From: Nesterenkonia halotolerans
GTDB lineage: Bacteria; Actinomycetota; Actinomycetes; Actinomycetales; Micrococcaceae
Assembly (NCBI RefSeq): GCF_014874065.1
Contig: NZ_JADBEE010000002.1
Location: 62,001 to 126,000, forward strand
Direction of reading: 5' to 3'
Length of the DNA: 64,000 bases
The notes under the pieces are model-generated. The model was not told the origin of the DNA and searched no databases. It saw only the letters and a program-made list of their open reading frames with translations. Below, in pieces: positions 21,031-25,429 of the stretch. Every line of letters begins with the position of its first letter. The first letter of the stretch is position 1. The position numbers were made by a program, and so were the translations under genes.

Positions 21031-21150
21031 ACTGAGCTCCTCAGCGCAGTGAAGGACGTGCTCGGTGCCGGCGACAACCACGACGTCGAGTTCGACATGG
21101 CCCTCTTCACAGTCGCCGTCGGAGTCTCAGCAACGAAAGATCGGGCCTAG
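21031..21150 (+). pseudogene. Possible C-terminal remnant of a lost gene
   Basis: This frame reads TELLSAVKDVLGAGDNHDVE and then FDMALFTVAVGVSATKDRA before a TAG at 21148-21150. It looks like a genuine protein tail but has no plausible full-length start; a GTG at 21049 would give 34 residues. I cannot assign a family. It sits exactly at the left edge of the accessory block, and its stop codon forms part of the next promoter's -35 box. It may mark a deletion or insertion junction, or be chance. Confidence 0.3.
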
Positions 21151-21175
21151 ACATAACTACCTACATAGCTATATT
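21148..21175 (+). promoter_or_regulatory. Promoter of the C1/O-demethylation gene block
   Basis: -35 TAGACA (21148-21153, five of six consensus), a 16-nt spacer and -10 TATATT (21170-21175) lie in a locally AT-rich stretch. The predicted start near 21182 gives a leader of about 120 nt. Confidence 0.55.
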
Positions 21176-21222
21176 CTCGGAACGTCGATGTGACGAGAAA
21201 CACATGAAGCGAGTTGTTCACC

Positions 21223-21234
21223 GACGGCGCCGTC
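21223..21234 (+). promoter_or_regulatory. 12-bp perfect palindrome in the demethylase leader
   Basis: GACGGCGCCGTC at 21223-21234 lies about 41 nt downstream of the predicted start site. It may be an operator or part of an RNA fold. Confidence 0.3.
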
Positions 21235-21267
21235 AGAGGTCCTTTCGTCGGGAATGTCCAAAACATG

Positions 21268-21288
21268 CCCGTGAGTCGGTCTCACGGG
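21268..21288 (+). promoter_or_regulatory. Strong RNA hairpin abutting the demethylase ribosome-binding site
   Basis: CCCGTGAG (21268-21275) pairs perfectly with CTCACGGG (21281-21288) over a 5-nt loop. The strong SD AAGGAGA begins 2 nt later (21290), and ATG 21302 follows. The position suggests translational control or transcript protection; no known riboswitch class is recognised. Confidence 0.45.
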
Positions 21289-21301
21289 GAAGGAGATACA
21301 C

Positions 21302-22890: not shown

Positions 22891-23766
22891 ATGGGCGCAG
22901 AGAAGCACGAGCTGTTCTCAGATGTCGGCAGGCTTCTTGTGTACGGCACCGATGAGCCCGGGATAGTGGCCGCCATCACGGACATACTGTCGGCGGCCGG
23001 TGCAAACATCATCTCCCTGGACCAGCACACGAGTGACCCGGACGGAGGACGCTTCTTCCAGCGAACAGTGTTCTCGATGCCCCACCTCTCAGCGGAGCTG
23101 CCTGCGCTGGAGGACAAACTCGGTGAGGCCCTCAAGAGATTCCGTCTCGATCACTCGCTGGTGGATGCCTCCAAGAAGAAGCGCATCGCGGTGATGGCCT
23201 CCACCTCAGATCACTGCGTACTCGACCTGCTCTGGCGCTATCGGCGGGGTGAGCTGCCGGTCGACATCGCCATGGTCATCTCCAACCACACTGGTCTGGA
23301 CGAAGATGTTCGCTCCCTCGGCATCCCCTTCTTCCACACGCCCACTGCCGGCAAGCCACGGGAGGAGGTGGAGGCCCGGCAGCTTGAGCTGCTGAAGGGA
23401 AATGTAGACCTCGTCGTGCTTGCTCGGTACATGCAGATACTCACCGAGGACTTCATCGAGGGTCTCGGAGCGCCCGTCATCAACATCCATCACTCGTTCC
23501 TCCCCGCCTTCATCGGGGCAGCGCCCTACCGCAAGGCCAAGGAGCGCGGTGTGAAGCTGGTGGGAGCGACGGCTCATTATGTGACCAAGGACCTGGACGA
23601 AGGCCCTATCATCGCTCAGGACGTCATCGCGGTGTCGCACCGAGATACTGCTGCAGACCTTCAGCGACGAGGCGCAGACGTCGAACGGCGGGTCCTCTCA
23701 TCCGCGGTCCAGGCGCACTGCGAAGACCGGGTTCTGCGCGACGGCTCCGCCACGATCGTCTTCTGA
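22891..23766 (+). CDS. purU: Formyltetrahydrofolate deformylase
   Basis: PurU hydrolyses 10-formyl-THF to formate and THF. ATG 22891 is chosen because AAAGGA lies 7 nt upstream; the TTG at 22876 is rejected. The 291-residue protein has an N-terminal ACT domain (RLLVYGTDEPGIVAAITDIL) and a formyl-transferase-fold C-terminal domain. The catalytic segments NIHHSFLPAF and LDEGPIIAQDV are intact. It sits between the demethylase and metF, where it would regenerate free THF and discharge C1 units as formate. Confidence 0.93.
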   Translation: MGAEKHELFSDVGRLLVYGTDEPGIVAAITDILSAAGANIISLDQHTSDPDGGRFFQRTVFSMPHLSAELPALEDKLGEALKRFRLDHSLVDASKKKRIAVMASTSDHCVLDLLWRYRRGELPVDIAMVISNHTGLDEDVRSLGIPFFHTPTAGKPREEVEARQLELLKGNVDLVVLARYMQILTEDFIEGLGAPVINIHHSFLPAFIGAAPYRKAKERGVKLVGATAHYVTKDLDEGPIIAQDVIAVSHRDTAADLQRRGADVERRVLSSAVQAHCEDRVLRDGSATIVF

Positions 23767-23803
23767 GCGCGCCGAGACCGGGCCACACAGCAGAAGCCTC
23801 GCG

Positions 23804-23824
23804 GACCTCCCTCCGGAGGAGGTC
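23804..23824 (+). terminator. Hairpin between purU and metF
   Basis: GACCTCC (23804-23810) pairs with GGAGGTC (23818-23824) over a 7-nt loop in the 130-nt gap. No U-tract follows. Confidence 0.4.
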
Positions 23825-23896
23825 GCCTCGGCGGGACGACGCAAGCACGGCATCACGGATCGGTGACCTCCGAGACGAGGACTATGGGAGACAAGG

Positions 23897-24766
23897 GTGA
23901 TCAAGATGGCGATGAACAGTGACTCAACAGCGTCCGTGATGACGGACCCGTCACTCGAGATGACGGGAAAAGATGTGGACGCGCTGCTGGCGGCCGCGCC
24001 CAAGATCAGACCCGGGACCCGCGTCAATGTGACGTTCCTGGGAAACGAGAACCTCGAGATGCGCGTGGCAGCCGCCAAGGCCGTTCACGACGCCGGGTTG
24101 ACCCCCGTGTCGCACGTGGCGGCTCGGAGAATGTCGTCCAAGGATGAGTTCGTCGAGTTCCTGGACGCCTTGCGGGGCCAGGTGGGAACTACCCACCTCT
24201 TCACCGTCGGAGGAGACCCCTCCGAACCCATGGGGCCCTACGCGTCGGCCCTGGATCTCATCCGCTCAGGCCTTCCGGCGGAGCATGGATTCACCCACAT
24301 CTCGATCGCGGGATACCCCGAGGGCCATCCGGACATCGCCGATTCCGAGCTCTGGTCTGTGCTGGAGGCCAAGGTCGCGGCGCTTCAGGAGCAGGGTCTC
24401 TCGGGCACCATCCTCACCCAGTTCGGGTTCGACGTAGACCCGATCCATGACTGGATCCGGGAGGTCCGCGCTCGGGGAATCGACCTTCCCATCCGGATCG
24501 GCGTGCCTGGCCCCGCCGGGATCAAGCGGCTGATGACCTACGCCAAACGCTTTGGGGTCTCAACGTCGGCGGGCATCGCCCGCAAGTATGGATTCTCCAT
24601 GACGAACCTGCTGGGGACTGCCGGACCGGAGCGGCTGATCCGGGATCTGCAGAAGGGGCTCACCGCCGAATCTGGTGATGTGAAGCTCCACTTCTACACC
24701 TTCGGCGGGATGGAGACCACGGCCGACTGGATTGCCGACTATGACGAGAGGCAGCTCGGCAGCTGA
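23897..24766 (+). CDS. metF: Methylenetetrahydrofolate reductase family protein
   Basis: This 289-residue TIM-barrel flavoprotein interconverts 5-methyl-THF and 5,10-methylene-THF. Recognisable segments are TFLGNENLEMRVAAAKAVHD, THLFTVGGDPSEP, ISIAGYPEGHPD, LTQFGFDVDPIHDW and RIGVPGPAGIKRL. In this block it would run in the oxidative direction, taking methyl-THF made by the demethylase. GTG 23897 has GGGAG 6 nt upstream; ATGs at 23906 and 23912 are alternatives. Confidence 0.88.
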   Translation: MIKMAMNSDSTASVMTDPSLEMTGKDVDALLAAAPKIRPGTRVNVTFLGNENLEMRVAAAKAVHDAGLTPVSHVAARRMSSKDEFVEFLDALRGQVGTTHLFTVGGDPSEPMGPYASALDLIRSGLPAEHGFTHISIAGYPEGHPDIADSELWSVLEAKVAALQEQGLSGTILTQFGFDVDPIHDWIREVRARGIDLPIRIGVPGPAGIKRLMTYAKRFGVSTSAGIARKYGFSMTNLLGTAGPERLIRDLQKGLTAESGDVKLHFYTFGGMETTADWIADYDERQLGS

Positions 24767-24802
24767 GCCCTCCCCAGAGCGCGTTGAACTGAGGAATTCG
24801 CC

Positions 24803-25429
24803 GTGAGGAGCGAGATGACGGATGTGCGGATCGAGGACAGGGCAGCTCCGGCCTTGTGCGGCGAGGTGGATCTTGAACGGATTGAGGATGCGATTCGTGA
24901 GGTGCTGCTGGCCGTGGGAGAGGACCCTTCCAGGGAGGGCCTGCGTGACACCCCTGCCCGTGTCGCGCGGGCCTATCAGGAGGCGTTCGTCGGTATGCGT
25001 CAGGATCCGGCGGAGCTCTTCGGGTCGACCTTCGAGGCCGGCCATGAGGAGATGGTCCTGGTCCGGGGCATCTCCTTCTACTCCATGTGTGAACACCACC
25101 TGGTGCCCTTCTTCGGAGTGGCTCACATCGGCTACCTGCCGGCGGTGGGCGGCAACGTCGCGGGGCTCGGAGCTCTGGCACGGTTGGTCGACGTGTTCAG
25201 CAAGCGACCTCAGGTCCAGGAGCAGCTGACCACGCAGGTGGTCAACTCCCTGATGGAGCATCTGAGGCCGAGGGGAGCCATCGTGGTGCTGGAGGCCGAG
25301 CATCTCTGCATGTCCATGAGGGGAGTCGCTAAACCCGGGGCGAAGACCATCACCTCGGCGGTGCGGGGGCAGTTGAGAGAAGCAGCCACCCGGGCAGAGG
25401 CGATGAGCCTGATCTCCTCCTGGCGTTGA
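24803..25429 (+). CDS. folE: GTP cyclohydrolase I
   Basis: FolE makes dihydroneopterin triphosphate, the first step of folate synthesis. The 208-residue protein has the zinc/active-site motif SMCEHHLVPFFG, a second Zn cysteine in AEHLCMSMRG, and the KRPQVQEQLT segment. Its presence beside a THF-dependent demethylase suggests a dedicated boost of folate; a second, housekeeping folE elsewhere would be expected. GTG 24803 has AGGA 8 nt upstream; ATG 24815 after AGGAG is an alternative. Confidence 0.93.
   Translation: MRSEMTDVRIEDRAAPALCGEVDLERIEDAIREVLLAVGEDPSREGLRDTPARVARAYQEAFVGMRQDPAELFGSTFEAGHEEMVLVRGISFYSMCEHHLVPFFGVAHIGYLPAVGGNVAGLGALARLVDVFSKRPQVQEQLTTQVVNSLMEHLRPRGAIVVLEAEHLCMSMRGVAKPGAKTITSAVRGQLREAATRAEAMSLISSWR

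Follow-up and report, generated by a model that had tools for sequence, protein, structure and literature searches.

The window analysed here comprises 64,000 nucleotides (contig C2, positions 62001-126000, of the 2.97-Mb Nesterenkonia halotolerans genome), and contains four consecutive genes on the + strand which probably form a catabolic operon for tetrahydrofolate (THF)-dependent O-demethylation, with an extra folE that would raise the folate supply. The genes are ligM (21302..22708), encoding a THF-dependent vanillate/3-O-methylgallate O-demethylase of 468 residues; purU (22891..23766), encoding a 10-formyl-THF deformylase of 291 residues with an ACT and a formyltransferase domain; metF (23897..24766), on the same strand two genes downstream of ligM and encoding a divergent methylenetetrahydrofolate reductase (MTHFR) of the 7xg9 type, predicted to oxidize 5-methyl-THF; and a second copy of folE (24803..25429), encoding a GTP cyclohydrolase I of 208 residues. 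The assignments are based on family scores for all four, supplemented by a tree and dN/dS for ligM, a PDB sequence match and the neighbourhood for metF, and a genome survey and tree for folE. The gaps between the genes are 182, 130 and 36 bp. For purU, the ATG at 22891 is favoured over the TTG at 22876, while metF starts at GTG 23897 or ATG 23906. An earlier note on this DNA had listed four consecutive same-strand genes and a demethylase of 468 residues, and both are correct. The nearest named loci are from Nesterenkonia, with LigM identities of 98% and 96%. In the surveys described below, genomes, loci and plasmids are labelled G, L and H respectively; G000 is the window genome, G023 corresponds to L007/L118, and G026 to L006.

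The demethylase scores 901.1 bits against the LigM model NF047885 (cut-off 580), and is 67.0% identical over 460 residues to the sequence of PDB 5tl4, a solved LigM. LigM chains in the PDB are matched at about 1e-220, and GcvT-type chains at 1.5e-12 or weaker. Residues Tyr30, His59, Arg121 and Tyr246 align to Tyr31, His60, Arg122 and Tyr247 of LigM, which we take to be the numbering of the catalytic tyrosine and pocket residues, and all four are kept. In a FastTree phylogeny of 94 rows, which included 5tl4 and DesA-like rows but no characterised DesA, the protein falls with actinobacterial LigM and 5tl4 with local support of 97-99, apart from the DesA-like rows and from the genome's own GcvT. 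There are three GcvT-fold matches in the window genome. DesA was rejected as an identity, the score of 626 bits being under the DesA cut-off of 800, as was a glycine-cleavage or sarcosine enzyme, for which the GcvT models score below 90 bits and the tree groups the protein with LigM. The dN/dS ratio for ligM is 0.03-0.05. The LigM-type demethylase proposed in the earlier note has thus survived the comparison with glycine-cleavage and sarcosine enzymes, and the protein is assigned as LigM on its curated cut-off, the tree and the 67% identity.

PurU and FolE also exceed their equivalog cut-offs, with 347.7 bits against TIGR00655 (cut-off 285.95) and 213.7 bits against TIGR00063 (cut-off 181.6) respectively. 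The FolE translation contains CEHH and HLC motifs, which presumably form its zinc site. MetF scores 44 bits with the Pfam MTHFR model (cut-off 24) but only 47.3 bits with TIGR00676 (cut-off 293.7). The PurU, MetF and FolE motifs had been described as intact, and the genes are; MetF, however, is divergent and lies far below its equivalog cut-off. Its nearest PDB entry is 7xg9, at 47.6% identity (E 2e-85), and the remaining MTHFR chains match at 5e-9 or worse; by sequence it is a divergent MTHFR that resembles the 7xg9 type more than any other. An ordinary MetF was ruled out by the TIGR00676 score and the 7xg9 match. A flavin-free mycobacterial MTHFR, considered in view of the divergence, was set aside: 7xg9 is without another close PDB chain (the next is at 5e-9), and Novosphingobium, Sphingobium and Agrobacterium head its relatives on plasmids. 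We assume that 7xg9 belongs to the demethylase-coupled MTHFR family reportedly described by Yu et al. in 2025 (Commun Biol 8:323). The MetF of the unit resembles this family in being closest to 7xg9 and a neighbour of ligM, and a preference for oxidation is predicted. An MTHFR subfamily of Sphingobium SYK-6 is described in PMC13001107 as preferring oxidation of 5-methyl-THF and as having coevolved with a LigM-type demethylase.

From the presence, order and families of these genes, we infer a direction of flux, a substrate and co-transcription. LigM enzymes transfer a methyl group from vanillate to THF and so produce protocatechuate and 5-methyl-THF, and the window enzyme would do the same with vanillate or a similar methoxybenzoate. 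MetF would oxidize 5-methyl-THF to methylene-THF, which a chromosomal FolD would convert to 10-formyl-THF, and PurU would hydrolyse this to formate and free THF, so that the cofactor turns over. The earlier note had described a chemically closed loop inside the four genes. The pathway itself is supported, but with one gap, since FolD is needed between MetF and PurU, and the one FolD match in the genome is at C2:382643, about 299 kb from the unit.

Protocatechuate would be passed to a pca ortho-cleavage cluster about 57 kb from ligM, at approximately 19.1-26.3 kb of contig C2. The cluster contains a 4-hydroxybenzoate monooxygenase-like gene (pobA), two IclR-type regulators, pcaH, pcaG, a pcaB-like gene, a pcaD-like gene and pcaC. 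PcaH, PcaG and PcaC are above their cut-offs, while the PcaB-like protein (302.5 bits, cut-off 355.75; a nitrosuccinate-lyase model scores higher, though also below its cut-off) and the PcaD-like protein (186.7, cut-off 255.85) are below theirs, and the PobA-like protein is above the cut-off of a subfamily model and below that of the equivalog. This protocatechuate pathway, and the score and tree that place the demethylase with LigM rather than with the DesA-like rows, make it rather unlikely that the main substrate is another methoxylated compound, such as syringate or 3-O-methylgallate, and not vanillate. Such a substrate would fit the name of the LigM family, which includes 3-O-methylgallate, and related clusters do contain other ring-cleavage genes, for example the gentisate type in G013, where Pfam matches suggest the pathway.

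The metF of the unit is the sole MetF match in the window genome. This would be expected if the unit were mainly anabolic, with 5-methyl-THF from LigM feeding methionine and purine synthesis and MetF replacing a missing housekeeping enzyme, and the ligM-metF-ligH operon of SYK-6 is described as essential for growth (PMC6888825). Nevertheless, we consider an anabolic role quite improbable. Of 30 Nesterenkonia genomes, 14 gave no MetF match (13 among the 26 with a completeness of 90% or more), so lack of the enzyme is frequent in the genus, and PurU, from what is known of its family, releases the one-carbon (C1) unit as formate, which is the opposite of LigH. MetF matches near 200 bits occur in three of the 30 genomes (G001, G021 and G029). 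In Nesterenkonia pannonica (L124, L010), whose assembly is 62% complete, the LigM and MetF frames hold stops or shifts, perhaps through sequencing error.

In the catabolic reading, which we prefer, the extra folE would raise folate synthesis, because folate here would be a bulk catabolic carrier that the housekeeping pool would limit. A second folE in the genome had been suggested as something to look for, and a housekeeping copy was found besides that in the unit. Two copies are present in four of the 30 Nesterenkonia genomes (G000, G007, G013 and G023), and all four extra copies sit in O-demethylase clusters. The unit in G023 is arranged as in the window. G007 has the fullest version seen, a row of metF, purU, folD, ligM, folE and a pabB-like gene (L122, 6763-13434). 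In G013 (L125/L147), folE and metF are adjacent and close off a cluster that also holds folD, purU, an MFS gene and gentisate-type ring-cleavage genes; the DesA/LigM-like gene, about 10.6 kb from folE, is below both cut-offs, and the cluster may carry out THF-demethylation of a different aromatic compound. Within the genus, two folE copies occur in 4/8 carriers of a LigM/DesA-like gene and 0/22 others (Fisher p 0.0026). No folE match was found in G008 (65% complete) or G009 (79%).

Outside the genus, folE is found within 6 kb of ligM in three loci that also have purU and metF: Naasia lichenicola (L034), a Microbacteriaceae metagenome-assembled genome (MAG; L038) and a genome whose genus code is that of Microbacterium suaedae (G233/L176), all three FolE proteins scoring above one FolE subfamily cut-off and below TIGR00063. 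G129 has a purU-folD-folE trio 13 kb from ligM. Arthrobacter sp. B6 (L266) has a folE in a C1-oxidation cluster with formaldehyde dehydrogenase, FdhF-like, metF, folD, fchA-like and molybdenum-cofactor genes.

A tree of 55 folE rows requires five changes to account for the linked copies, of which at least two are forced by starred branches. A single clade of the four Nesterenkonia and two Naasia/MAG copies is rejected (p-AU 0.0063, with the long G233 row left out), which suggests at least two separate recruitments of folE into demethylase units. A single origin of the four Nesterenkonia second copies, with support of 32/0, is neither shown nor rejected. The linked Nesterenkonia copies have longer branches than the housekeeping copies, and the window folE has a dN/dS of 0.125 against L007, indicating purifying selection.

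A different folate-related gene appears in sphingomonads. A search of 72,556 plasmid records with the 7xg9 sequence, and then with one relative, gave MetF of this type, at 63% or more, on ten sphingomonad plasmids (H11-H20: five Sphingobium, three Novosphingobium and two Croceicoccus). In nine of these a folB-like gene is within 2.4 kb of metF, and in the tenth, PP1Y, it is 26 kb away; this folB homologue is present in only 13 of the 72,556 records. Four of the regions were opened (L268, L269, L271 and L272), and in each of them metF, purU, folD and the folB-like gene accompany a gene of the aminomethyltransferase type. The two sphingomonad demethylases scanned exceed the DesA cut-off (834.9 and 849.9 against 800). 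In a fifth region, from Agrobacterium fabrum, a LigM above cut-off is beside metF, and neither purU nor any folate gene lies within 5 kb. In all five plasmid regions opened, the 7xg9-type MetF is beside a DesA/LigM-like demethylase, three of these demethylases having been scanned with the models. Genes resembling cobalamin-independent methionine synthase lie beside demethylation clusters in two phyla (L038 13308-14408; L269 140-1267; L272 8036-9166).

The earlier suggestion of a folE recruited to serve the demethylase has been strengthened by the genus survey, the neighbourhoods and the trees. Several observations nevertheless weigh against the reading as a whole. The unit lacks folD, though the gene belongs to the row at L122, L034 and L038. 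The four-gene order, which the earlier note had expected to be conserved, occurs among the loci examined only in the close relative G023/L007, and purU adjoins the demethylase in sphingomonads as well. L006 (G026) consists of ligM, purU, metF and a DAK gene with folE cleanly missing, and folE is dispensable there because it is absent. The genus test ignores the close kinship of G000 and G023, and includes G013, where the demethylase falls short of both cut-offs and is about 10.6 kb from folE. Among 396 genomes of the order, of which 23 have a LigM-like match at E <= 1e-150 (21 above cut-off), at least two folE copies occur in 4/23 LigM carriers (G000, G233, G129 and G143) against 4/80 without a LigM match (G115, G185, G399 and G423; a second match in G107 is a fragment), and this association is not significant (Fisher p 0.072). 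Around the extra folE of the carrier G143, no LigM, MetF, PurU or FolD was found in 12-13 kb, only a GcvT-like gene, and the same four were not found within 12-13 kb of the extra folE of the non-carriers, some of which have a GcvT-like gene. The group for the one-origin test was chosen after the folE tree had been seen. Lastly, the pabB-like gene of L122 scores 310.5 bits against an equivalog cut-off of 328.4, and two sphingomonad folB-like proteins reach 55 and 61 bits, against a cut-off of 72.15; the name folB is likely, but not sure.

Some of these points would be explained if the pathway were right but folE had come to lie there by chance, as a within-genus duplicate inserted at a variable region, or if it served a different pterin pathway, for example that to queuosine or tetrahydrobiopterin, FolE being known to supply several pathways. 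The block is flanked on one side by menA/menE-like genes (menA above, menE below cut-off) and a 104-residue gene, and on the other by menB. The interval between menB and the 104-residue gene/menE is a variable site: in G022 it holds other DNA, of about 5.6 kb, and in G011, G018, G024 and G004 no match to the 104-residue gene or menE was found within about 10 kb of menB. A chance neighbour, or one with another pterin use, is realistic but on balance unlikely, given the placement of all the extra genus copies in demethylase clusters, the separate recruitments, the pabB-like and folB-like genes in the same kind of unit, and the purifying selection on folE.

The new point is that units for THF-dependent demethylation appear to have recruited genes of folate synthesis repeatedly; the enzyme kinds and the pathway are already known, and are found in a new arrangement. 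It appears slightly better than an even bet that THF-dependent catabolism is limited by the supply of folate, and that bacteria of two phyla have repeatedly moved folate-synthesis genes into the unit (folE, once with a pabB-like gene, in actinobacteria, and a folB-like gene in sphingomonads), synthesis being induced with substrate use. Before the folB-like plasmid data, which raised our estimate, we had put this reading at evens. The parts of PMC3621897 and PMC13288931 available contain no description of folE in a THF-demethylation unit, folB and pabB being outside this search, which does not show absence from print. THF-dependent O-demethylation is a step in lignin use. If the proposal is true, engineers could co-express a demethylation cassette with its own folE or folB, and the unit would lend itself to a clean test of the point at which a vitamin cofactor turns into a bulk carrier of catabolism.

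The frequency of the unit was estimated from a pattern scan that kept the best 75 LigM loci and is not a random sample. Within 6 kb of ligM in the 39 actinobacterial loci (L006-L045 minus L042; 35 with full flanks), MetF is found in 33, PurU in 16, both in 16, FolD in five and FolE in three. The other 36 loci are nearly all from Rhizobiales, and with actinobacterial queries gave MetF in 21, PurU in one and FolE in none (31 with full flanks). The 30 loci of the genus and order surveys (L118-L124 and L165-L187), the genomes of which partly overlap the other set, gave MetF in 24, PurU in 14 and FolE in three. The earlier note had thought an actinobacterial version little described; with MetF beside ligM in 33 of 39 actinobacterial loci, it is not rare. 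LigM-MetF clusters are common in actinobacteria, and folE is the unusual part.

The unit resembles several known systems. As in the SYK-6 operon, LigM is encoded with a coupled MetF (PMC6888825 and PMC13001107), but PurU and FolE replace LigH, a 10-formyl-THF synthetase, and the genome has ortho-cleavage genes for protocatechuate in place of 4,5-cleavage. No LigH domain was found among the eight neighbouring proteins scanned; a genome-wide search was not made. The sphingomonad plasmid cassette (L268, L271 and L272, and rearranged in L269) shares a THF demethylase, 7xg9-type MetF, PurU and an added folate-synthesis-like gene, but its demethylase exceeds the DesA cut-off (two were scanned), folD is part of the row, and the folB-like gene takes the place of folE. 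Chloromethane users burn methyl-THF through MetF, FolD and PurU according to PMC3621897, in which the cmu cassette of M. extorquens CM4 (purU, folD, metF2) likewise uses an extra MetF and PurU to reach formate, and the plasmid carries an added folate gene, folC2. Unlike CM4, the Nesterenkonia unit lacks CmuA/CmuB and folD, and a table in that paper gives no plasmid copy of folE for CM4. The actinobacterial demethylenases BrdA and SesA are also GcvT-fold THF enzymes, but have other substrates, and BrdA is 26.7% identical to LigM (PMC5547118). A purU gene is also reported from a sarcosine cluster of Arthrobacter (PMC3534580).

Downstream of the unit, 150 bp after folE, a DhaK-DhaL fusion resembling dihydroxyacetone kinase is encoded on the + strand (25580..27205). 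It is beside the unit in three strains, but a DAK match is within 6 kb of ligM in only two of the 39 actinobacterial loci (L006 and L007). It scores below the equivalog cut-off (484 against 575), and its GC3 is 0.62, against 0.77-0.82 in the four genes of the unit. Its membership of the demethylation unit is doubtful, and a role as C1 partner would be tentative. Judged by dN/dS, purifying selection acts on all five of the window genes that were tested.

Rfam gave two matches in the window, both far under their gathering scores, and the intrinsic terminators number two (1.9 expected), with none on the + strand of any intergenic gap. The sigma-70-like promoter TAGACA-16-TATATT reported earlier is present at 21148..21175 (+ strand), with 10 of 12 consensus matches, and is the better of two promoter-like matches (shuffled mean 0.8, sd 1.0). 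It is kept in the two related strains L006 and L007, where it reads TGGACA-16-TATATT. Directly 5' of the ligM ribosome site is an 8-bp perfect inverted repeat, CCCGTGAG-5-CTCACGGG (21268..21288, + strand), whose arms are identical in all three strains and which is possibly an operator or leader hairpin; the complete ligM leader folds as shuffled sequence does (z -0.02). The earlier note had also reported intergenic hairpins. Those in the purU-metF gap and downstream of folE fold no better than shuffled sequence (z +0.92 and -0.24), but the ligM-purU gap does hold a strong stem-loop at 22804..22850 on the + strand (z -5.49 for 22795-22855), which is largely kept in three strains, with no both-sided changes. 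Because it has no U run, it is more likely to shape the decay, processing or stability of the mRNA than to end transcription.

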